DNA of 64,000 nt from Vanrija pseudolonga. Taxonomy: Eukaryota > Basidiomycota > Tremellomycetes > Trichosporonales > Trichosporonaceae. Shown here in pieces: positions 839 to 60,894 of the stretch (the first letter of the stretch is position 1; the number at the start of each line of letters is the position of its first letter). The stretch lies in contig NC_085852.1 in assembly GCF_020906515.1 (NCBI RefSeq), forward strand, positions 558,001-622,000, in the 5' to 3' direction. The translations under genes were made by a program, and so were the position numbers. The notes below the pieces were generated by a model. That model worked only from the letters and a program-made list of their open reading frames with translations, did not search any database and was not told the origin of the DNA.

Positions 839-1884
839 ATGGGAGCTAAGATTGTGAAGGCTCTCTCTCCGGATCACGTGTACAAGGGTGGGCCTGCAGG
901 ATGAGGCTTACACACAACTCTGACTGCTGGCAGGCACATACACCTTTCGGTTCAAGCGGCGCAAGACACTATCGTCCCTCGTCAAGCCCGAGCCGCCGTA
1001 CGAGACCCTCGTGGATGCCCTAACTGAACTCGGCCGCACGTCCAAGCTGCTCAAAGTCAAACACAAGGGCGATACCCTCGAAGCCACGCTCAAAGTTGTC
1101 GCAGCCTGGTATCAGGATGACTACAGGGCAGCGGTGAGAGAGTTCGATGCTCTCATGGCTACGTTCAGCAGCCTCCGCCTCACCGAGCTCGACACCAAGG
1201 GTGTCGATTTTGGCCCTGTGAACTACCGTCTACACAGTTCTCTGCGGCGCATCCGCGCAGACACTCTAGTTTAACTGGCCTTGAGTCCTTTGAATTTTCG
1301 GATCGCGCAAGCTCTTCCATCATGATTTCAGACCTCGACATGTTCCTCAGACGCTTAAAAGCCTGCAACACGCTGGTCAAGCTCTGTCCTCGGCCCCACC
1401 AGCGCCGTTGCGATATCCGCTGTGTTTGCTGGGACCAATTCCGGCTCAAAAGTCCTTGGGACAAGGACAGAGAGAGGTCGCGGTTCCCCGCGACGTATTT
1501 GACAAGATCGCCGCAATCCTGGCCGCGCGCCGGCAGAGGCAGAAGGCGGTTCAAGTTGACGTGCTCGGCATCCTCACTTTTTGCCAGCTGCTCCGCCGCT
1601 CTGCCAGCGGCAGAGGACCAACCACGCTACCTGTCGAGATTGTGAACCTGATCATGGACTTCATCGGCGCCGCCCTGAGCCGTGAGGCTGTGGCCCGCGC
1701 CAAGAAGCTCGCCTTCGACGACGCACACCTGAGCACCCGAGCTCGGGCGCTCCAGGGGATGGAGGAGGAGGAGTTCGCGGTAGCGCTCGAAGAGTGGCTC
1801 GTTGACGAGGGGTTCGTGTACACCCCTCCGCCACCGCTGCGTTCTGTAGAACCCGAAGACGGGGGTGAAGGGGTCGATGGGTAA
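839..1884 (+). pseudogene. Tandem family copy A, decayed
   Basis: This is the first of seven related genes. Exon 1 (839-887, MGAKIVKALSPDHVYKG) and a 46-nt intron (888-933, with CTGAC) are intact and occupy the position used in copies D-G. Exon 2 opens GTYTFRFKRRK, matching the GKYTLILRPH region of relatives, but stops at 1272-1274. Recognisable family sequence then continues in a second frame (CVCWDQF, about 1322-1480) and a third (about 1480-1884: LPVEIVNLIMDFI, then FAVALEEWLVDEGF). One stop and at least two frame changes make it a pseudogene. The C-terminal third is still well preserved, so loss may be recent, or that part may be expressed separately from an internal ATG such as 1408. Confidence 0.75.
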
Positions 1885-3188
1885 ACCTGTTCATACTGTG
1901 AACGCACCTCATGTCCTTCGTCGTCAGGGAGCAGTGCGGTGTGAGGGGTGAGTGACCTTGGGAGCTTCCGAGAGCATTGTCCAAGAGAGAGGACCGTACT
2001 CAGGAGGTCCGTAGAAAGACGAACGGATGTAATGAGGTTCAAAGTCGCACATCATCGGCTTAGCGGGGCTGAAGACACGACCGGCACCTGGCTTCTCGCG
2101 GAGCAAGCTGCACCCGCACGCGTGCCGTGCCAAGCAAAGGAGGGCTACACCCATATCCAGAGGGCCGGGCTGCACTGCTTTCTCTCCAGTTTACCCCGCA
2201 CCGAGTCCCGCCGAATCGGTCATGAGCAAGGTGTTATAGAACAACGACGACGAGCCGGCGGTTAACCCCGCGCGTGAGTGTCGCCGACCCAGCCGAGATG
2301 CACAAAGTCACCCGCCCCTACGCCGGGCTTGGCACACACCTCGGCGCCGGGAGCCTAGCGGAATGACAATAGAGGCGTGTACAGCGTTCAGGAGAGGCCG
2401 AAATCGAGATCGCTTGGTCGTACGGTGCTGTTGCTGGTGCTGCCTGCCACTGTCGCCATCTGCGGGCAAGCGGGCAAGATACGATTTTGATCAGCGGGCA
2501 AGGGCAGCGGGCAAGTTGTCCGGAGTATCGGTCCGCAACTCGTAGCGAGAGAGCGATGCTGTGCACTGGCGCGACAGTGACGGCACGGACCCATGTGTTG
2601 CATGCTCCGCACATCACGGAACGGGACGAGCGAGCGAGTTTGGCGAGGTTGCATGGGTTGTTTGTGGGTTATGCCGGGGAGGTAAACCGGCGATCTCGGC
2701 GACGATTATTTTTTTGTCGGCTGGGCGGATGGTGACTGACACGGCTGGTGGAAGATTCCTGGCAGCCTTCGCGTCGCGTCATTCAGCCCTGACTCCAGCA
2801 CGCCTCTGCACAGGATGAAGGGCCGAGGCCGGGGCTCGCTCGGCATGCACGTTGATGATGGAGGCGCTTCATACACTGTAGCATCTCGCCGCGCTGGACA
2901 CCGGCCGGCCACCGAAGCCGGAGCCGAGCGCCAAGGCCGCCCGCGTGGTGATGCTGTGCTGGGCCGCTGTGGCGATCATGACGCTGCGCCGAGCGTCCGC
3001 CGACTCTCCATGCTTATCGGAGTGTCGTTGGCCGGGCTGCGAGCGGCTGAGAGCGTATAAGAAGCGATTGCGTTCGCCGCTACATATGTAGCCCGCTGAT
3101 ATCCTTGCCCACTGCTCATACGATCTGCCGCGGCAGTGCCACTTCTCCACTTTCACTACCCACCCCACCACAGCACGCACAACTCACC
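1885..3188. other. Intergenic with SUR7-like gene promoter
   Basis: These 1.3 kb hold no ORF that I can link to a family on either strand. A TATA-like TATAA lies at 3056-3060, about 130 bases before the ATG of the next gene, and is a plausible core promoter. The rest is unexplained GC-rich sequence between copy A and the membrane-protein gene. Confidence 0.5.
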
Positions 3189-3967
3189 ATGGGCGTCGGA
3201 GGCGGCTTACAAATGTTCCTGCTGTTCGCAGCTACTGCGATTCTACTGGTCTTGACTCGTAAGTGTGGCTGCTTGGGGGAAATCAAGGCGTCCACTAACC
3301 CACCCAGTGTCAACACCTGTCATCAAGGGGTTGAAGTTTATGGAGATCCAAACCTCCGCAACAACACTAAGGCTCGGTGTCCTGGGATACTGCAACTCGA
3401 GAGGATGCAGTTCCAAGCACATCGGGTACGATCTGTCTGCCGCCCTTCGCGCGGCCACGAACTACAACAACGTCAAGGACTCCTACACGCCCCTCACCAA
3501 GTCGCTTGTCATGGTGCCTATTTCATGTGGTACGTTCATGCTTCATCCCCCGGCAAAAGCTCACACACAATTCAGGCATCACGGGCGTCGCATTCCTCAT
3601 CGCTCTCTTCTCCCAGAAGATGGGATACTGCGTCTCGGGCCTGATCTCCCTCTTCGCCTTCGTCTCCACCCTCGTGGCGCTCATCTGCGAGTCGGTCCTC
3701 TTCGCCGCCCTGCGGGACGACCTGCGCAAGCACACCAATGCGCGCGTGTCCAACTTTGGCATTGCGCATTGGCTCCTCGTCGCTGCCACCGCGTGCGTCT
3801 TCCTCTGCCCCCTCCTCGGCATGATCGAGTGCTGTACCGCCCGCTCGCGGTCGCAGAAGTCCAAGGATGGCCAGGTGTACGACCCCGTCCAGCCGGCAGG
3901 GTATGGGTACAACATGCCCCTGGCGGCGTACCCTCCTCAGCCTCAGCACAGTGGCCACAACGCGTAG
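3189..3967 (+). CDS. SUR7/PalI-family tetraspan membrane protein
   Basis: Three exons (3189-3258, 3308-3529, 3576-3967) encode 227 residues. The first hydrophobic segment (MFLLFAATAILLVLT) is followed by an extracellular loop containing GVLGYCNSRGCSSKHIGYDL, which fits the G-x-C...C...GYD pattern of SUR7/PalI claudin-like proteins. Three more membrane segments follow (ITGVAFLIALF, CVSGLISLFAFVSTLVAL, HWLLVAATACVFLCPLLGM), then a short cytoplasmic tail ending in a Tyr/Pro-rich segment. Family members act at plasma-membrane eisosomes or in Rim101/PacC pH sensing. This gene sits inside the tandem array, between copies A and B, with copy B starting 211 bases after its stop. Assignment to SUR7 versus PalI is not certain. 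Confidence 0.8.
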
Positions 3968-4178
3968 AAGTGAGGCTGGTTTATAGAGTAACGATAGAGA
4001 CGCACACACATGATCATGCACGATATGCCTCGCGTGCCGGCCGTAGTGCTGACAATGTCAGGGCCATGGTGTCGGATTGGCCGCCTTTCGCCGAAACTCG
4101 TCGACGTCATGGACTCGACCAACATTGAACTGCTGCACATCAAAATCTATCCACTCCTTCAACAGTGGGAACACGACC

Positions 4179-5199
4179 ATGGGCAAGCGTAAATGGCACG
4201 GTCCTGTCCCTACCGGAAAGTACACCATCTCAGCGGGCACTCCCAAGCCCAAGATCTCTCTGGGCGGCACAGCCAGCCGGCAAACGAGCAACGAGCTCTT
4301 CACCGAGTTCCAGCTCATCGCGGAGGACTTGGCCTGCGTATCCGTGCCCACGGACGCAGGGGACATGGCGACCATTACCGTCACGGTATCGCCAACGGCC
4401 CAACCTCGTGGGCAAGAGGCCAGAGCCTTGGAGTGGGTGTTGAGCGTTCTGAACCGCGCCAATATTTCCGACCTTGAGATCAGTTGGTGTCCGCACGAGT
4501 GTAAGCCGTACCTCCCGCCCCAGGGCACCGCATTCTTCATGGACCGGCTCAAGACCTCCTCGATTACACATCTACAAGTTCCGGGATTCACTCCTGTCCT
4601 CACCGCTCTCCGGCACCGCCTGAAGGGACTTCGGACCATCGTCGCGACAAGATACAGAGCCGGCACCGCCCTAGAAAGCAAGATAGGCGAAGCGGCCGAG
4701 GCGTTGGAGCTCAGCCCTAGTTTGACGCGTCTGCGTGCGAGGGGAGATAGAGCATTGCCTTCCACGTTGTGTGTGCTGGGACGCGGTCGCCAACGGTGCC
4801 CTCAGGTTCAAGTGGGGTAGCCGCCGCGACCAGCAACAATGGCGCCAGCAGTACGACGGTATCCGCGAGACCATCTCGGCCCGCCAGCGCGCTACAAAGG
4901 CCACACAGATGATGGTCCTCAGCATCATCGCCATCGTGCCCTATGCCCATGCCCTACCACAAGAGATATGGGACATGGTCTGCGGGTACGTGGTGGGAGA
5001 CAGCTTAAGCGCGGGCCAGTTCAGTCACGCCCTCGAGCTGGGGTACGACGCGGCGACCCTCGACAAGCGCGCTGCGGCTATGCGGCACCTGGACGGGAAC
5101 GAGTTCAAAGTGGCTCTCGAGGAGTGGCTTGTATTGGAGGGGTTTGTGGCCTCATCGCCAACGAAAGGAGGCATTCCGGAAAGGGCAGCACAGCGATAG
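4179..5199 (+). pseudogene. Tandem family copy B, one-base frameshift
   Basis: The reading frame starts MGKRKWHGPVPTGKYTIS at 4179, without the first intron of copies A and D-G, and runs as family sequence to about 4730. Just before CVCWD the frame shifts by one base: family sequence resumes in the next frame and runs to the stop at 5199 (LPQEIWDMVCGYV, FKVALEEWLVLEGF). The total span is 1021 bases, one more than a multiple of three, which fits a single inserted base near 4730. No intron fits the short gap. Except for this, the gene has full family length and all motifs. It could be a very young pseudogene, a sequencing or assembly error, or a programmed shift; the first two are more likely. 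Confidence 0.7.
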
Positions 5200-5285
5200 T
5201 CACGGTTCACAAATGACGTCGGCGTCCAAGCATTCCGCAACATCGACACCACATCCTTCACTTCAGCAACACTGTTTTTACCACC

Positions 5286-6356
5286 ATGGGCCGCCGGCCG
5301 TGGCCACTGCGTGCAGGAACATTCACGTTCAGGCTCCGAAAGGCGGCAGGGAAGATCGTCTTGGGCACAGCTGCCAACGAACAAGATAATGTTGCTGCCA
5401 ACAAGCAGGGTAGTACCACTGCCGCCGATCCCAAGGACCATCTTGCGGGGCGTCTTCGTTCCCTGGCCGACCGCTACCGGTTCGTGTCCGTCGCTGAGGA
5501 TGATACAAGCGACTTTGTGACCATCACTATGAAGATAAAACGACAAGAATGGCGGTTCCCGCCCTTGCTCGAGTTGATGGCAATTGTGAACGACGGCGGC
5601 GTCACAGAGTTCGAGATCAGCCATGTCGCCCGCACTGTATCAAACGAAAGGGAGACGGGTCCCGTCCTAGATTTGCTCCATTCGCCCTCAGTTCGACGTC
5701 TCCGATGTCCGTCTGTGTGGTCGCTTGCCTGGGGCCTCTCCCCCTGGCACCGCTCGCGCCTGGATGGACTCCAAAGCGTCGTGTTTACAAGCCCCCTCGT
5801 ACCTGGGGAGATGGAGCTAAGCCACGCGGCGCGGTGCTTCTCCCTGTACAGCGGCTTGAGGAGCATGTGCCTAAGAGACGACCAGTGTCACCGAGCCTCC
5901 CACTGTACGTGTTGGGATGGATTCGACGAGCCCCGTCTCCGGCCAAGCCAAGACCAAGAGCGCACCCCCGACGACTTGAGCACCAAGCTCTGCGCTCTGC
6001 GGGACACCATGGAGAGCCGGCAACGCGCCCTCAGAGTCACACAGCTCACAGCACTCAATGGCCTAGGCGTTGCCGAGTGTGCCAGAGCGGCGCTCCCACC
6101 CGAGATATGGGCCATGGTGCTCGGGCACATCGACTGCCTGACTCCCGCGCAGGTAGCCCGCGCCACCAAGCTAGCTGGGAGCGAGTCTCTCGCGTCGCGG
6201 ACAGCCCAGATGCGGGGCCTCACGGGTGGCAAATTCAACCACGCTCTCGAAGAGTGGCTTGTGGACGAGGGATTCGTTCGCGGACTGGGGGAGAAGGGTG
6301 TGCCTGAGAGAGAAGAAGGGGACTGCGGCTCTCAAGAGGACAGTGGCGATGATTAG
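5286..6356 (+). CDS. Tandem family copy C, intact, intronless
   Basis: A single open reading frame of 356 residues starts only 86 bases after the stop of copy B. It begins MGRRPWPLRAGTFTFRLRK, so the region upstream of the family domain is coded without the intron present in other copies. Family landmarks are all present: the acidic beta-rich segment (VTITMKIK), ISHVAR, CTCWDGF, the RQRALRVTQ helix, the F-box-like LPPEIWAMVLGHI and the C-terminal FNHALEEWLVDEGF. The last ~25 residues are acidic and variable. It is the most divergent intact copy. Function unknown; the LPPExW segment invites an F-box comparison, but there is no Skp1-binding evidence. Confidence 0.75.
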   Translation: MGRRPWPLRAGTFTFRLRKAAGKIVLGTAANEQDNVAANKQGSTTAADPKDHLAGRLRSLADRYRFVSVAEDDTSDFVTITMKIKRQEWRFPPLLELMAIVNDGGVTEFEISHVARTVSNERETGPVLDLLHSPSVRRLRCPSVWSLAWGLSPWHRSRLDGLQSVVFTSPLVPGEMELSHAARCFSLYSGLRSMCLRDDQCHRASHCTCWDGFDEPRLRPSQDQERTPDDLSTKLCALRDTMESRQRALRVTQLTALNGLGVAECARAALPPEIWAMVLGHIDCLTPAQVARATKLAGSESLASRTAQMRGLTGGKFNHALEEWLVDEGFVRGLGEKGVPEREEGDCGSQEDSGDD

Positions 6357-6545
6357 GTCGAGGTCGCTGCATGCATGGGCCCGTGATTGTGTGTGCTGAA
6401 GTGTTCGAGAGCGCGGCATGTCGGCAGCTCGCTAGTCCCCAGGCGTTTGCTGCCAGGCACAGGTCATGCCGAGGCCAAGGTGAGAGACCCAGCCCCCGTT
6501 GGGTGAAACGCTTCGTCAATGTCAACAACCCCGTCCTCCGAGTAT

Positions 6546-7641
6546 ATGACGGCTCGACGGGCAACCATCTCTGTTCACTTTGTCCACTATCCATCACCGT
6601 GCTTGAACTTGGGGCCCCCCAAGAATCCGCTTCCTCCCTTCGTGCCAGAGCGCATAATCCATGGTGCGGCTACAACATGGTCGCGCTGACCTTGCAGGCA
6701 AATATACACTCATCCTTCGGCCCCACGTGCCGAGGCTGGCACTCGGTACCATCGCGGACACCGCCCCAACACTGTCCTTTGAACCACTCACCGCCTTCGA
6801 ATGCGTGTCCGTTCAACAAGATGACGAGAGCACCAGCATCACCATCACCATCACAGAGGCGGACGAGACGGATCCAGGCGAGATCGACGCCTTCGAATGC
6901 GTCATGTCGGCTGTGAACGACGCGCGCCTCGTCGACCTTGAGGTCCGTCACGAGATTGACTCTTGGAAGTTGAGAGGTGGCGGATCCCGGTACTACGAGC
7001 ATGCGGTCTTCCACCGACTCCGGAATCCCAATTTGCGGCGGTTGCGAGCCCAGAGGTTGGACGGCTGCTCAAAATACCTCCCGCGCCCTGTCTCACGAGG
7101 ACTGCAGACCCTCGTGCACCCCCGAGGCAACCACACATACCAGAGGGGTGAATTCGGGTGGGTGGGCAACTACATCGAGGCCTGCCCGAGCCTTTTAGAC
7201 GTTTGCGTCGGGCTTTGCGGCTTGGTGCCGGACGGAAACGTGCGCTGCAAGTGCTGGGACCGCTGGAAGAACGAGTATCGAGAGTTTGGGATGGTCAAGT
7301 ACGACTACGGCAAGTGTGCTCGACATGCGAGGAAGATCTCGAAGGCACATCACCAACGCACCAAACGAACGCAGGTGGCGGCAATGAGCATCCTAGCTCT
7401 TTCCGGTTGTGTTCCACTCCCGCCAGAGCTGTGGGACATGGTAGGCGAGCACCTCGAGGCGAACGGCACCATGGACCTGCGGCAGTTCAGGCGAGCACGG
7501 GAGCTAGTGCCGCTGGCAAATGTGTCTGAGCGTACTCGGGCAATGGGCGGCCTCGAGGGTGAGGAGTTTGTGGACGCGCTCGAGGAGTGGCTGTCGGCTG
7601 AGGGGTTCTCGTATGGCCTCGAGGGCGGGCAGACAGTGTAG
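6546..7641 (+). CDS. Tandem family copy D, ancestral start lost
   Basis: Exon 2 (6698-7641) is intact, with VDLEVRHEI, CKCWDRW, LPPELWDMVGEHL and FVDALEEWLSAEGF. In copy E the protein starts at an ATG that aligns here with TTG (6609-6611), so the ancestral start is gone. Two rescues are visible. An in-frame ATG at 6546 adds about 22 residues and keeps the conserved 34-nt intron (6664-6697), giving 353 residues. Alternatively, ATG at 6661 reads straight through the unspliced intron in frame and gives 326 residues. I prefer 6546 because it preserves splicing, but neither is proven. Copy D is closest to copy E. Function unknown. Confidence 0.65.
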
Positions 7642-7902
7642 GACCGAACAGGGACGGGGATGTGGAGGGCGAGGGCTAGCGAGATTAATGCATGGGCGTC
7701 GAAGCCGGGTGATGGAAATCAGTGGGCCATACCGAGACAAAGACATAGCAGGGCCAAGGCCGAGTGAGTAACCCCGCCCGCCTCCCCGCGTGAAACGCTT
7801 GACGTCATGGTGGAACGTAAACAACAACTTGCGCACCTGTCTTCCTGTAGAACTGATGAGGTTGCATGCTCTGTTCCTTCCACCCACTCACCATGTGTCA
7901 AC

Positions 7903-9005
7903 ATGGCCCGTAAACCAAACTTCCCTCCCTTCGTACCGGGGCGTATCGTCCACGGTGAGTGAGGCTGTGTAATCGCACTGACATACCAGGTAAATACAGA
8001 CTGGTCCTCCGCCCCCATAGGCCGAGCTTCGCGCTCGGCACTGTCCCAGCCGCCGACGCTGGGACATCGCCTTCGCCCTATGCGTCACTCGCCGCCACCT
8101 TTGAGTGTGTGACTGTCGAACAAGATGCCGAGGGCACCACGATCACCATCACCATCTCACAGGCGGAAGAGACCGCCCCAGACGAGATCGAGGCCTTTGA
8201 ACGGGTCATGTCCTCCATCAATGCCGCCCGCTTCGTCGATCTCGAGGTTAGCCATGAGTTCGACGAGTTCTTTGAGGCCGGCGGAAGGCGGTACAAGTGC
8301 TTCGCCATCTTCCACCGCCTTCGCAATCCCACGTTGCGGCGGCTACGGGTCGATGCCCGCTTCCGAGGCTTCGGCTTCTATGACGCTAGGGGTCCATTCC
8401 TGCAGTATCCCGCTTGGCGCGGGCTGCAGACTCTTGTTCTCACAGGGAGTGATGGGTCGCAGAACACTCATCTGTCCCTTGTGCAGACATTGCTCCTCCA
8501 CAGCCGGAGCCTGTTGGCCATTTGCATTGGGCGCTGCGGCGGTGTGCTCCCCGGAAGGGCTTGTACGTGCTGGGACGACTGGGACCGTAAGGAGTTCAAC
8601 TTCAACGGCATGGCGAGGGTGGTCAAGATGGGCTACGGCTCGTTCGAGCACATTTGGCGGATGGTCGCCGCCCACCGGAGAACAATAAAACGGACCCAAG
8701 TCGCGGCGATGAACTTGCTCCTGCTCGCCCATTGGAGTCCGCTCCCGCCAGAGATATGGTCCATGGTGGGCGAGTACCTCGAGGCGGACGGAATCATGGA
8801 CGCGCCGCAGTTCAACCGTGCAAGGGAGTTGGTGCCACTCGCCACCCTGGCGCAGCGGGCGCTCGCCATGCGTGATGTCGAGACAGAGCAGTTTGGGGAG
8901 GCGCTGGAGGAGTGGCTCGCGGCCGAGGGTTTCTCGTATGGCGCTGCAGCAGATCAGGTGACGTCGACGAGTTCTACTGGACCCGTCTCCACCGACCCTT
9001 CATAG
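7903..9005 (+). CDS. Tandem family copy E, intact
   Basis: Exons 7903-7954 and 7990-9005 give 355 residues, starting MARKPNFPPFVPGRIVHGKY. The 35-nt intron has CTGAC and interrupts the same Gly codon as in copies A, D, F and G. The N-terminal half has a run of Thr/Ile-rich beta strands (TTITITISQAEET) and a VDLEVSHEF block, then FHRLRNPTLRRLR, which looks like one leucine-rich strand-turn. CTCWDDW follows, then RTQVAAMNLLLL, the F-box-like LPPEIWSMVGEYLEA and FGEALEEWLAAEGF. It is a complete, typical member and useful as family reference. No signal peptide or membrane segment is seen, so it is probably cytosolic or nuclear. Confidence 0.75.
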
Positions 9006-9206
9006 AAGACGACGACTTGGACATGTATCACAGTGATGATTGCGGAGAACTTGCAGCAGGACCAACTGCTAACGAAGACCCGGCGATGAAACACTCGGCA
9101 TGTACAGCCCGTTTCACACTGATGCAAATCACTTATAAACTAGACCCGCAACCATCTCACGATGTATCTCTTGTTGCCTCCGCCCACTCCACAATCTTTC
9201 ATCACC

Positions 9207-10266
9207 ATGGGTAGGCCACCGCCTCCCTTCGACCCGGAGCGCATAATGCAGGGTGATTCCACTGCCTCCTGAAGCCAGGTGCTGACGTTGAGGCACATAC
9301 GAGTTGACTGTTCGCCCACACAAGCCGAAGCTGGCGCTGGGCAACACCTCAAGGTATACAGCACCGTCCCTTGATTCCCTGGCCGACCTCAAATGGGTGG
9401 TGGTCCGATACAGCCCCGAGAGCACGACCATCACCATTACGGTCACAACGACAGAAAAGACCGACCCCGGCATGGCCGCTGCCTTTAATCACGTCATGTC
9501 CGTCGTGAACGGCCTGCGTCTCGTCGACCTCGAAATAAGTCACGTCTTCACCCATACCGAGTCCGGCGACTCGCGGTATACGGACCATGCTGTCCTCCAC
9601 CGGCTCTCCAATCCCAATGTGCGACGACTGCGTACCAAGAGACGCATGCATCGTGGTCTCGTGCAATGCCTGAACAACAATGCCTTGCGCGGGCTGCAGA
9701 CGATCGTCATGACAGAAGCCGACGGCCGTCAGGCTCCTCAGCTGCGAGACGCTTCGACCTGGATATACTGCAGCCCTAGCCTTCTGAGCATCTGCATTGG
9801 GCGGTGTACCGGCGAGCCTGGGAGACGGTGTACCTGCTGGGACGAGTGGGATCGCTACGAGTTCGACTTGCGCCTCAAGCGCACACAGAAAGTGTCGTTC
9901 GAATACGGCTGCTTCAAGCGCTTCTGGGAGACGTCCGCGGCCCACAGGAAGACCACGAAACGGACTCAAGTGGCGGCGATGAACTTCCTCGCCCTGGCCG
10001 ACAGCTCCCTCCTCCCCCTCGAGTTGTGGGCCATGGTGGGCGACTTCCTCGACGATCTGGACGCTCTGCAATCCAAGCGTGCGAGGGAACTGGTGTCCGT
10101 CGCCGGCGTTGCAGAGCGCACACGTGCGATGCGCGGACTGGAGGGGGTTGAGTTTGTCGACGCGCTCGAGGACTGGTTGGCGGCCGAGGGGTTCTCGTAC
10201 CACCCAGGGAGCATCGACGCAGACGACACAGACAGTGAGGATGGCGACGAAGGGGCGGATACCTAA
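9207..10266 (+). CDS. Tandem family copy F, intact
   Basis: Exons 9207-9252 and 9293-10266 encode 339 residues, starting MGRPPPPFDPERIMQGTYEL. The 40-nt intron keeps the family position but its acceptor is GAG rather than CAG, with CTGAC just upstream. Landmarks are TITITVTTTEKTDPG, VDLEISHVF, LHRLSNPNVRRLR, CTCWDEW, KRTQVAAMNFLAL, LPLELWAMVGDFLDD and FVDALEDWLAAEGF, then an acidic tail with several Asp. It lies 201 bases after copy E and 199 before copy G. Function unknown. Confidence 0.73.
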
Positions 10267-10465
10267 GGTGTGGAGTGGGAGAGGCTGTACTGCCTGTATA
10301 AAAGGACATGTGTATGCTATAGATGAGCACCTGTGGTGTGAACGAGAGGCGGCAGGTCAGACTCTCAAATGAACAACAGTCTTGACGTCATCTCAACAAC
10401 ATTAGTTGACTGAAGTTGACGACCACAACTCGCTCTCCACCTTCACAAACTACCCCTCTGACTGC

Positions 10466-11502
10466 ATGGCACCGCACCCGCGAGCCAGCTCGCCTTTCGC
10501 CCCCGACCGCATCATCCATGGTGAGTGGCAGCTGTAGCCCCGCTGACGCTGGCAGGGAGATACACGTTCAAGCTTCGCGCGCACCAGCCGAAGGTGGTCC
10601 TAGGCTCGGCCGGCGCGTTGGACACTGCAGCCTTCCTACCGCTGGCAGCTCTCAAAAGTGTATCGGTGATGCAGCGGTACGACACCACGACGATCATCGT
10701 AACCGTGTGCACGACTACCAAGCGGGTCCTCAACACCAGACGGCGGGGCCCGACGGCACTAGAGCAGGTCATCTTCGCGCTCAACGCATCGCGCATGACC
10801 GACCTCGAGATCGCGCACGAGGTCGTCGGCGGGTGTGAGTGGTGGGACAGAAAGTACTTGGGCCACGCGGTCCTGTACCGGCTCGACAGCGCCACGCTAC
10901 GGCGGCTAACAGTCGACGGGTTCGGCGGCCATGACGTCCGCTTTCTCCAGGGTCCCCGGGCCGGCAGGATACAGAAACTCGCCGCCCCGGAGCACTGCTA
11001 TGGCTCGACGCACCTCGGGATGCAGAGAGCCGAGGTCGCCATCGCCGCCAGTAAGCGTGTGGCCAGCGTATGCGTGCGCGCGGAGGCCTGCGAGAGGAAG
11101 TGTACCTGCTGGGCCGCGTATCCCGCCTTTGAGCCCCCTCCGCCCGGCTCCAGCTCCAACGAGGCCGACAGCGAGGAGTCCCTCCGCGAGACGTACGGCC
11201 GCCTCGTCTCAACGGCAGAGGAGCACCGCCGCCAGACAAAGGCGACGCAGCGCGCAGCGCTCAACCTCCTCACGCTCGGCGACGCCCTCGGCGAGAGGGA
11301 TCCGCTCCCGCCCGAGCTGTGGGCCATGGTCGGCGACTACTTGGACGCCATGGGCTGTCTCGACGCCGCGCAGTTCGAACGGAGGCAGCTGGCGAGAGGC
11401 GAGGCGAGGCTTGCGCTCCGCGCGCGCGCGATGGCGCACCTTGCCAACGAGGAGTTTGGCACTGGGCTCGAGGAGTGGCTTTCGGCAGAGGGGTTTGTGT
11501 GA
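10466..11502 (+). CDS. Tandem family copy G, intact
   Basis: Exons 10466-10520 and 10556-11502 encode 333 residues, starting MAPHPRASSPFAPDRIIHGRY. The 35-nt intron has a standard GTGAGT donor and the family position. Copy G is the most GC-rich and diverged of the intron-bearing copies: the motif is CTCWAAY, with Asp replaced by Ala, and a Ser/Glu-rich insert (SSSNEADSEESL) follows it. LPPELWAMVGDYLDA and FGTGLEEWLSAEGF are conserved, and the protein ends immediately after the terminal motif. It closes the tandem array. Function unknown. Confidence 0.73.
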
Positions 11503-27183: not shown

Positions 27184-30237
<3,054 letters not shown>

Positions 30238-57500: not shown

Positions 57501-58254
57501 TTGACGACGGCCACGATCCCATCACTCATTCAACTCCAATAAGCAGCCAGGGCAATCCAAGTCTTGGCATTTGCCTGCAGCAAGCCCGTCGCGGGAAAAA
57601 AACGACGAAACGTACGACACAGTAGAAAACAAGGTACGGCCGTGATTGCGAAGTGGGCTTCGCACGAACTGCGGCGCGCGCGCTAGACGACGAGGGAGCA
57701 ACGCGCCAAGGGTCTAGCGGCCAGCCTCTGCTGCTTGGCACGCAAGTGAGGCTCACTCAGCCTACGCAAGCCAAGGTCAGCTCAGGAGGGTTGCCGTTGC
57801 TTTGCCATCACAACGGCACACCTCCAAGCACCCACACTCCCATAGCCCTGGCGTCACGTTTGCGTTTGGTGTTTCCTTACCCCATCTCTCGCAGCGACTT
57901 CCGTCCTCGTTGTTGTCTAACACACTCCTTCTTAGACCTTACACATTCGTTCATCGACGGCGAGATCGACGTAGAGCGAGACTCTTGTTCTGCTCGCAAC
58001 TTTTTTTTTCTCATTGTCGCCCTCCTCGCTGCTCTCCTCCGGCACAAAGCCTCTGAGCAGCGCACACTAGCGGCCTCGTCCTCGAACGCGACCGCCTGTC
58101 CCTTCCCCCTTGGATAAATCCCACGCCCATCAGTGCTGGTGCACAGACGTGAGTTGATGCGCGCGGGCGGCTTTGCGCAGCACATCCGCCGCTCGCCGCC
58201 GGCAACGACCTCGGTGGCTGACGTGATAGCGAAAAATCCAAGACACCCACCACG
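54580..58254. other. 3.7-kb intergenic region, no gene recognised
   Basis: This is the longest gap in the window. ORFs up to ~300 codons exist (for example around 56590-57504) but overlap others on both strands and show no family pattern. A GTGGGA hexamer array lies at 54884-54919. The last kilobase is likely the promoter and leader of the GMC oxidoreductase, including a T-run near 58003. A non-coding RNA or a fast-evolving gene cannot be excluded. Confidence 0.5.
54884..54919. repeat. (GTGGGA)n short tandem repeat
   Basis: About six near-perfect GTGGGA units lie downstream of RIO2. It is a simple repeat with no obvious role. Confidence 0.9.
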
Positions 58255-60894
58255 ATGCTCCCCACCCTCGCCCTCGCGGCGCTCGCCGCTGCCGTCCCCG
58301 TGCTCGGCAGCAAGGACGACGCGTTCAACTCGCACATGCACCGCGACATCATCCGCCGCGCAGGCATCACCTCGGATGTGACCCAGGTCAGCGGCAAGGC
58401 GTTCGACTTTATCATTGCCGGCGGTGGTCTTGCGGGCCTTGCGCTCGCTGGCCGCCTGTCCGAGTACTCCAACCAGACCGTCCTCGTCATTGAGGCCGGT
58501 AGCGATGGATCAGACTACGCCAACAACATTGACATTCCTGGTGAGTGGTGGTGGTTGGTATGCGACGCGCTCGCTGCCGTACGGCTTGCCATGCCCGCGC
58601 CAGAGCGACGCGTCCGCGCGCGGTCAGGTCCCAGATCTAGCTCTAACTCTCCCTCTCTAGGTTACTCGTACATCAACTCGCTCACCCGCCCGAACATGCC
58701 CACCGACTGGCAGTACCAGACCGTCTCGCAGGCGTCGGCTGGCGGTGTCCAGAAGCGCTGGCCCCGTGGCAAGCTTCTCGGTGGCTCGGCCGCCGTCAAC
58801 GGCCTCTTCTGGTGCCGTGGTGACTCGGGCGAGTACGACGACTGGGCGGCGCTCAACCCCGGCGCCAACCAGACCTGGAACTGGGCCGAGATGCAGAAGT
58901 ACATCAACAAGGCTGAGCAGTTCCATGCTCCCCCTCAGGCTCAGGCGACCCAGTTCAACATGAAGTATGACGCCAGCGTCCACGGCACCTCGGGCCCCAT
59001 CCAGGCCGGCTTCTCTCAGTACATCTACCCCTTCACCTCGAACTGGATCCCCGCTTGGAACGCCATGGGCCTCCCCGCCCATGACCTTGCCGACGGCTCG
59101 ACTCGCGGTGTCATGATCACGCCCTCGACCCTCAACCCTACCAACCAGTCGCGTGTCGACTCCAAGATTGGCTACATTGACCCCCTGCCCCCTCGCGCCA
59201 ACCTCTTCATCCTCACTGGCCAGCAGGTCACCGGCATCGTCTTCAACGGCACCAAGGATGCCTCGGGCAACGTTGTCGCCTCGGGTGTTTCCTTCTCGGC
59301 CGGCTCGGGCCAGACTGTCTACTCGGTTCAGGCTAACAAGGAGGTCATCCTCTCCGGTGGTGTCGTCGGCTCGGCCCAGATCCTCCAGCTCTCGGGTATC
59401 GGCCCCCAGACTGTCCTCCAGCCCCTCGGCATTAACACGCTCGTCGACCTCCCCGTCGGCCACAACCTCCAGGACCACGCCTCGTACACCTTGTACTTTA
59501 ACACGCAGCAGATTGACAACTGGCAGCAATTTGCTAACAACGCGGGCGCGCAGGCTCAGGCCCTCACCGAGTGGCAGCAGAGCTCGACCGGTCTCTGGAC
59601 CTACGTCAACGAGGCTGTCGGTTACATCTCGTACGCCGACATGATGGGCAGCAACGCCTCGGCCGCCACCGCTGCCCAGGCCCTCAACCTCCAGGACATG
59701 GCCAACCAGGTCACCCAGATGCACAATCTCCCCACGAGCGTGCAGGCCGGTCTCGCCGAGCAGTACAAGCTCCTCCAGAGCCGTCTCCAGGACAACACTG
59801 GCCAGCTCGAGATCATCCTCACCATGTGGGGCTCGGGACCCAACAACATTGGTATCCAGATGGGTATCCAGCACCCCTTCTCCCGCGGTACCATCTTCAT
59901 CAACTCGAAGGACGCTTTCACTGCCCCTACCATTGACCCCTCGTACTTCTCAGTCGGCCCCGACGCCCAGATCCTCACTGCTGGCTCCGAGTGGGTCCGC
60001 AACCTCGCCAAGGCTGGTCCCTTTGCCCAGCAAATCACTGGAGAGTCGGGCGCCTCGGTCGGTCTCACCGGCCAGGCTCTGACCACCTACGCTACCACCC
60101 AGGCGGGCACCGAGTTCCACCCTCTCGGCACATGCTCGATGCTTCCCCGCGCCCAGGGCGGTGTCGTTGACACCAACCTGCTCGTCTACGGCACCAACAA
60201 CGTCCGTGTTGTCGACGCCTCGATCATGCCCCTCCAGGTCTCTGCCCACTTGATGGCCTCGACCTACGGTATCGCCGAGAAGGCCGCCGACATCATCAAG
60301 CAGGCTCACTGGAAGCCCCCTCCTCCCCCCCAGTCGTCGACCGCTGCCACGACTACCGAGCAGGAGTCTACCGCTGTCCCCGGCCAGGCCACTGACTCGG
60401 CCGTCGCCAACGCTGAGAGGCCCGCCTCCAAGGGCCTTTCCAGCACTGCCAAGCTCGGCATTGGAATCGGTGTCGGTGTCGGCGTCGGTCTCCTCCTCGC
60501 CATCCTCGCCTTCCTCTGCTGCTGCCGTCGCAAGAACCAGAAGAAGGCCTCGGACGAGAAGGGCTGGTACGCCCAGGGCCAGACCCAGGACAACGGTGCT
60601 TGGGACACTGGCGCTGCCTACCGCGAGCAGGACTCGTTCGCCATGGGCGACGTCCCCGGCCGCCCTCAGCGTCCGTTCTCGACCGCCCCCTCCATCTCTA
60701 CCATGGCGACCCACGACCTGCCTGGCCAGGGTACCATCTCGCGCTCGGGCTCCGAGTACGGCAACCTCGGTGCTGGCGACCTCCCTCCTGGTGCTTCGCA
60801 TGGCACCGACTCGCCCTACCGCGACTACCCTACACCCGGCCAGAACTCTGGCATCTCGACCCCCCAGGGTTACCCCCAGCAGTACCGCGACTAA
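58255..60894 (+). CDS. GMC oxidoreductase with C-terminal membrane anchor
   Basis: Two exons (58255-58540, 58661-60894) encode 839 residues. The 120-nt intron is in frame and stop-free, so retention would add 40 residues. A signal peptide (MLPTLALAALAAAVPVLGS) is followed by the FAD motif FIIAGGGLAGLALAGRLSE, GKLLGGSAAVNGLFWCRG, the active-site GTEFHPLGTCSM (His about 582) and DASIMPLQVSAHLMASTYG. After a Ser/Thr/Pro stalk comes one membrane helix (about residues 693-718, GIGIGVGVGVGLLLAILAFL) then CCCRRK and a ~120-residue Gly/Ser/Gln-rich tail. It should sit on the cell surface with the flavin domain outside. The donor is probably an alcohol or sugar; aryl-alcohol or glucose oxidase-like activity is a guess. 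Confidence 0.9.
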   Translation: MLPTLALAALAAAVPVLGSKDDAFNSHMHRDIIRRAGITSDVTQVSGKAFDFIIAGGGLAGLALAGRLSEYSNQTVLVIEAGSDGSDYANNIDIPGEWWWLVCDALAAVRLAMPAPERRVRARSGPRSSSNSPSLGYSYINSLTRPNMPTDWQYQTVSQASAGGVQKRWPRGKLLGGSAAVNGLFWCRGDSGEYDDWAALNPGANQTWNWAEMQKYINKAEQFHAPPQAQATQFNMKYDASVHGTSGPIQAGFSQYIYPFTSNWIPAWNAMGLPAHDLADGSTRGVMITPSTLNPTNQSRVDSKIGYIDPLPPRANLFILTGQQVTGIVFNGTKDASGNVVASGVSFSAGSGQTVYSVQANKEVILSGGVVGSAQILQLSGIGPQTVLQPLGINTLVDLPVGHNLQDHASYTLYFNTQQIDNWQQFANNAGAQAQALTEWQQSSTGLWTYVNEAVGYISYADMMGSNASAATAAQALNLQDMANQVTQMHNLPTSVQAGLAEQYKLLQSRLQDNTGQLEIILTMWGSGPNNIGIQMGIQHPFSRGTIFINSKDAFTAPTIDPSYFSVGPDAQILTAGSEWVRNLAKAGPFAQQITGESGASVGLTGQALTTYATTQAGTEFHPLGTCSMLPRAQGGVVDTNLLVYGTNNVRVVDASIMPLQVSAHLMASTYGIAEKAADIIKQAHWKPPPPPQSSTAATTTEQESTAVPGQATDSAVANAERPASKGLSSTAKLGIGIGVGVGVGLLLAILAFLCCCRRKNQKKASDEKGWYAQGQTQDNGAWDTGAAYREQDSFAMGDVPGRPQRPFSTAPSISTMATHDLPGQGTISRSGSEYGNLGAGDLPPGASHGTDSPYRDYPTPGQNSGISTPQGYPQQYRD

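Follow-up and report, generated by a model that had tools for sequence, protein, structure and literature searches.

A tandem gene array in Vanrija pseudolonga belongs to an expanded leucine-rich repeat superfamily with a probable F-box-like C-terminal domain

We analyzed a 64,000-nucleotide stretch of the genome of Vanrija pseudolonga, a member of the Trichosporonales (hereafter the window; contig C4, positions 558001 to 622000, in a nearly chromosome-scale assembly of 24.87 Mb on 9 contigs). At window positions 839 to 11502 lie seven homologous genes on one strand, A to G, with the same extent as in the first-pass annotation, which had proposed a seven-copy tandem array; both profile scores and a genome search confirm it. 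A profile built from 11 proteins (C to G themselves, three from a second cluster, and three from a relative, with A and B left out) matched the window frames of C, D, E, F, and G at E values of 6e-110 to 1e-136. Copy B was recovered in two frames (6e-48 and 3e-23) and copy A in three (2e-32, 1e-6, and 1e-6), while no remaining frame in the window fell below 0.25; with a wider profile, A3, the best other frame reached 0.063. As a genome query, copy E recovered all seven copies (5e-5 to 1e-183). The gaps between neighbors are 86 bases (B-C), 261 (D-E), 201 (E-F), and 199 (F-G), within the reported range of 86 to 261, and the C-D gap is 189 or 304 bases depending on whether D starts at 6546 or 6661. 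Copy A stands 2.3 kb from B, and a SUR7/PalI-like membrane protein gene lies in that interval (3189 to 3967; one exon frame scores 20.7 for SUR7, below the Pfam cut-off of 29.6).

All seven genes are on the plus strand, and four of them (C, E, F, and G) have open frames. Copy C (5286 to 6356) is a single intact exon encoding 356 amino acids. Copy E (7903 to 9005; exon 1, 7903 to 7954; intron, 7955 to 7989; exon 2, 7990 to 9005) encodes 355 amino acids, and its spliced product is identical to public record LOC62_04G005461, an "uncharacterized protein" of Vanrija pseudolonga. Copies F (9207 to 10266; exon 1, 9207 to 9252; intron, 9253 to 9292; exon 2, 9293 to 10266) and G (10466 to 11502; exon 1, 10466 to 10520; intron, 10521 to 10555; exon 2, 10556 to 11502) are built in the same way: in A, E, F, and G, a short first exon is followed by an intron of 35 to 46 bases at the same site, which is absent from B and C. 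Such an intron is possible in D (6546 to 7641; intron 6664 to 6697), whose main exon is open from 6698 and which carries TTG at the site of E's start ATG; its in-frame ATG options are 6546, if spliced, or 6661, if unspliced, as predicted for its counterpart in the relative. The decay of some members, suspected earlier, is evident in the broken frames of A and B. In copy A (839 to 1884; exon 1, 839 to 887; intron, 888 to 933), the exon 2 frame meets a stop at 1272 and the C-terminal part is open in another frame (1294 to 1881), making it a probable pseudogene. In the intronless copy B (4179 to 5199), the N-terminal frame, open from 4179, reaches a stop at 4818 and the C-terminal frame is open from 4726 to 5196.

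The proteins share a layout of N-terminal beta segment, degenerate leucine-rich repeats (LRRs), CxC motif, long helix, and C-terminal helical domain beginning with LPxE. The motif order described in the first-pass annotation is present in C to G, and in A and B when read across frames, although some of the letters are looser than it gave, with VDLExxHE strict only in D and E. Invariant residues in an alignment of eight proteins from the array and the neighboring cluster include RRL, C...CxCW, LP.E, Q..R, and F......W...E. In copy E, the LRR-like region spans 8178 to 8537 (residues 81 to 200), and the long helix and F-box-like LPxE domain span 8631 to 8948 (residues 232 to 337). The predicted model of this copy contains several beta-alpha units, of which the block formerly taken as the only LRR-like one is a single example; Foldseek searches with this model and with that of the C-terminal domain returned nothing at E <= 0.001.

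Taken alone, the array copies match little. Neither C to G nor four frames of A and B had any match above the Pfam cut-offs, LRR models included; the copies had no significant match in NCBIfam, and their best match among PDB sequences was at an E value of 0.16, which is not significant. The earlier view that these genes fit no described family thus stands for the whole protein, but not for the group to which they belong. Searching the genome with copy E revealed a second cluster of three members on the opposite strand, ~70 kb away (C4:487-491 kb). Among its members lies a short minus-strand frame (L009:5218-5283) that closes with FSVALEEWL, the C-terminal motif of the family, apparently the remnant of a lost copy. 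A second-cluster query gave weak matches elsewhere (E = 0.004 to 0.08). Among five places taken up after such matches, one on C7 was at first confirmed only weakly (0.007), and one at C2:312 kb was unconfirmed, with a best E value of 1.9. Open reading frames (ORFs) on C3 and C4 matched the profile of 11 array-type proteins along most of the profile, at E values of 4e-15 and 3e-12. At E <= 10, genome searches with three such ORFs gave 91, 74, and 51 matches; the reversed sequence of the superfamily member used as the first query gave 0 matches at that threshold and no candidate past a first look.

Merging these with the array matches yielded 77 loci at E <= 0.01 with gaps of up to 450 bases, and nine settings of cut-off (0.01, 0.001, and 1e-5) and gap yielded 55 to 78. 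The counts of the search tool are lower bounds, and in the merged list B and C form one locus, some genes may be counted twice, and fragments are included. About three quarters of the loci (57/77) are on C4, in tandem groups, as are 10 of the 17 physical groups in the genome; with C4 making up 13.8% of the genome, the probability of this under random placement is 2e-5, although neighboring groups may not be independent. Within the two clusters, identity to copy E is only 26 to 52%, and the wider superfamily is far more diverged. Judged by sequence, the array genes are a tandem branch, by common descent, of a superfamily of roughly 55 to 78 loci, an expansion reaching well beyond the local one first described.

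The superfamily also has known relatives. Against the PDB, its profile matched LRRs of the ribonuclease inhibitor (RNI) type, in NLRP1 and RNase inhibitor, at an E value of 9e-7. A founder-like member, L069, at C4:2797 kb, likewise matches RNI-type LRRs and has clear RNI-type repeats, and the superfamily member L058 and a related protein (P0008) exceed the LRR_6 cut-off. LRR descent of the superfamily is therefore well supported by sequence comparison, and because of the profile match we dropped the reading of a categorically new family. The array's own repeats, set beside those of RNase inhibitor, RanGAP, and the NLRP proteins, are strongly degenerate. Nor do we read these proteins as nucleotide-binding LRR receptors, since the scanned ORFs lack an NTPase domain: Pfam found no NACHT (the domain of NLRP proteins) or NB-ARC in ORFs of eight array-type proteins and 30 superfamily members, a scan outside which any separate upstream exons would lie.

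The C-terminal LPxE domain is likely a diverged F-box. In P0008, PF13013 (F-box-like_2) matches across this domain at 30.5, above its cut-off of 21.6; in L069 the same model scores 14.5, below it. Three PF13013 matches are listed for the genome, each of them within the superfamily, and an LPxE-type domain lies C-terminal to the LRR region in all 30 aligned members, which the profile itself had selected. Two results weigh against an F-box: the same array frames match no F-box model in Pfam, and the C-terminal domain model finds no F-box chain among the best 50 matches listed of each fold list, although a family missing from these lists is not thereby excluded. Both would be expected if these were LRR proteins with an unrelated helical domain, binding proteins as scaffolds or in the manner of RanGAP or an inhibitor, with no link to ubiquitin ligases. 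LRR descent holds equally well in that case, but the P0008 match and the confinement of the listed PF13013 matches to the superfamily argue otherwise, and we consider it rather unlikely. Between the LRR part and the long helix, 19 of the 30 members aligned in A3, not including L069, carry a C/CxC motif that might bind a metal or cap the LRRs.

A related genome provides a view of the array's age. Five proteins encoded on one 32,963-base contig of the relative resemble B (P0005), C (P0009), D (P0006), E (P0003), and F (P0002). A phylogenetic tree places each of D, E, and F beside its own counterpart (support 100/99 to 100/100) at 72 to 78% identity, the highest being D with P0006, and C is nearest to P0009, at 51%. 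Copy B shares a group with C, P0005, and P0009; because the forks there are weak, its likely pairing with P0005, a single open frame of 411 amino acids as against B's split frames, is a reading of the sequences. No counterpart of A or G turned up, which is uninformative given the poor recall of the protein searches: a profile that included C and D missed both P0006 and P0009, and another search returned three rows, its own query members not among them. For the same reason we do not conclude that the family is restricted to Vanrija. On the evidence of the tree, D, E, and F at the least were present before the split from the relative, and with three copies clearly and two probably having counterparts, much of the array appears older than the species split. 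Pairwise comparisons among D, E, F, and G gave synonymous divergence (dS) of 1.1 to 1.6 and ratios of nonsynonymous to synonymous divergence (dN/dS) of about 0.35 to 0.58 by simple counting, estimates that are rough because dS is high; these copies are constrained, though loosely. Given these pairings and the paralogue dS values, the rapid birth and death proposed in the first-pass annotation is unsupported for the array. Its suggestion of a recognition or conflict role may still hold. Conservation is higher in the C-terminal domain than in the LRR part for D (0.84 versus 0.75), F (0.81 versus 0.68), and C (0.61 versus 0.48), and hardly so for E (0.73 versus 0.72).

We lean slightly toward the view that these are LRR proteins, expanded in number and ending in an F-box-like domain, that serve as adaptors taking targets to a Skp1-cullin-F-box (SCF)-type ubiquitin ligase. 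If the C-terminal domain is a true F-box relative, the degenerate LRR solenoid of each protein would bind a target while the F-box-like domain docks on Skp1, and the partner so delivered would be ubiquitinated. With the adaptor kept constant, multiplied copies could provide variable target receptors and widen the target set, which might comprise foreign, selfish, or internal proteins. The nearest known likeness is to the F-box/LRR (FBXL) receptors of SCF ligases, which also combine an LRR recognition region with a helical domain starting LPxE, and P0008 scores for both F-box-like_2 and LRR_6. FBXL proteins usually have an N-terminal F-box followed by LRRs; in Vanrija the order is reversed, with LRRs first and the F-box-like domain last, the array copies match neither F-box nor LRR models, and many members have the C/CxC motif between the two parts.

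An adaptor family of this kind need not be selected for diversity. It could be old, growing and decaying by genomic drift with most copies redundant, as the broken frames of A and B, the altered start of D, the divergence within the two clusters and beyond, and the tandem concentration of loci on one chromosome would suggest. The rough dN/dS values among D, E, F, and G, and the retention of D, E, and F, and probably B and C, in the relative run counter to such drift, which we regard as a possible but doubtful account. That the open copies are unexpressed relics seems very improbable: E is the sole array copy met as an NCBI-named protein in protein searches, but five main exons are open, the intron site is conserved, and the counterparts in the relative are open too.

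A bolder version of the adaptor hypothesis, which we consider quite unlikely, is a large intracellular recognition repertoire in which several dozen LRR receptors, diverging fast but joined to an unchanging C-terminal F-box-like adaptor, mark foreign or selfish proteins (from viruses, transposons, or non-self mating partners) for destruction, as a fungal counterpart to the F-box immunity proposed in nematodes. In Caenorhabditis (PMC8665587), F-box genes show species-specific tandem expansions clustered on few chromosomes, dN/dS is below 1 in nearly all paralogue pairs, and foreign proteins are proposed by the authors as what is recognized. The Vanrija genes resemble them in tandem clustering, confinement largely to few chromosomes, and paralogue dN/dS below 1; they differ in that the Caenorhabditis F-box is N-terminal and recognizable rather than C-terminal and diverged, and in that several copies of the array also occur in a relative.

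Among the titles and abstract openings listed in searches of the open-licence literature, none describes this superfamily. Among Trichosporonales genome papers, the main text of PMC7026411 contains neither "F-box" nor "leucine," and the available text of PMC12820176 contains none of "F-box," "leucine-rich," or "ubiquitin." In PMC10406608, a single mention of "F-box" occurs in a legend. This family of several dozen genes is almost invisible to Pfam and almost unseen by current domain models, so that domain-based family counts would miss it. With its founder-like gene, its reversed LRR/F-box-like layout, and its set of copies, it offers material for asking whether ubiquitin-ligase adaptors have been multiplied for recognition in fungi, as in nematodes and plants.

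Elsewhere in the genome, groups of recognizable PF12937 F-box-like genes, apparently tandem and distinct from the LRR superfamily, occur at C3:4.13-4.20 Mb, C5:1.573-1.588 Mb, and C7:2.19-2.22 Mb, and F-box genes seem to be abundant in this genome overall. Within the window, the C terminus of a sugar transporter (Sugar_tr) is encoded at 30 to 422, and long open frames match a GH2 beta-galactosidase (27187 to 29784, minus strand) and a GMC oxidoreductase (58222 to 60891, plus strand).
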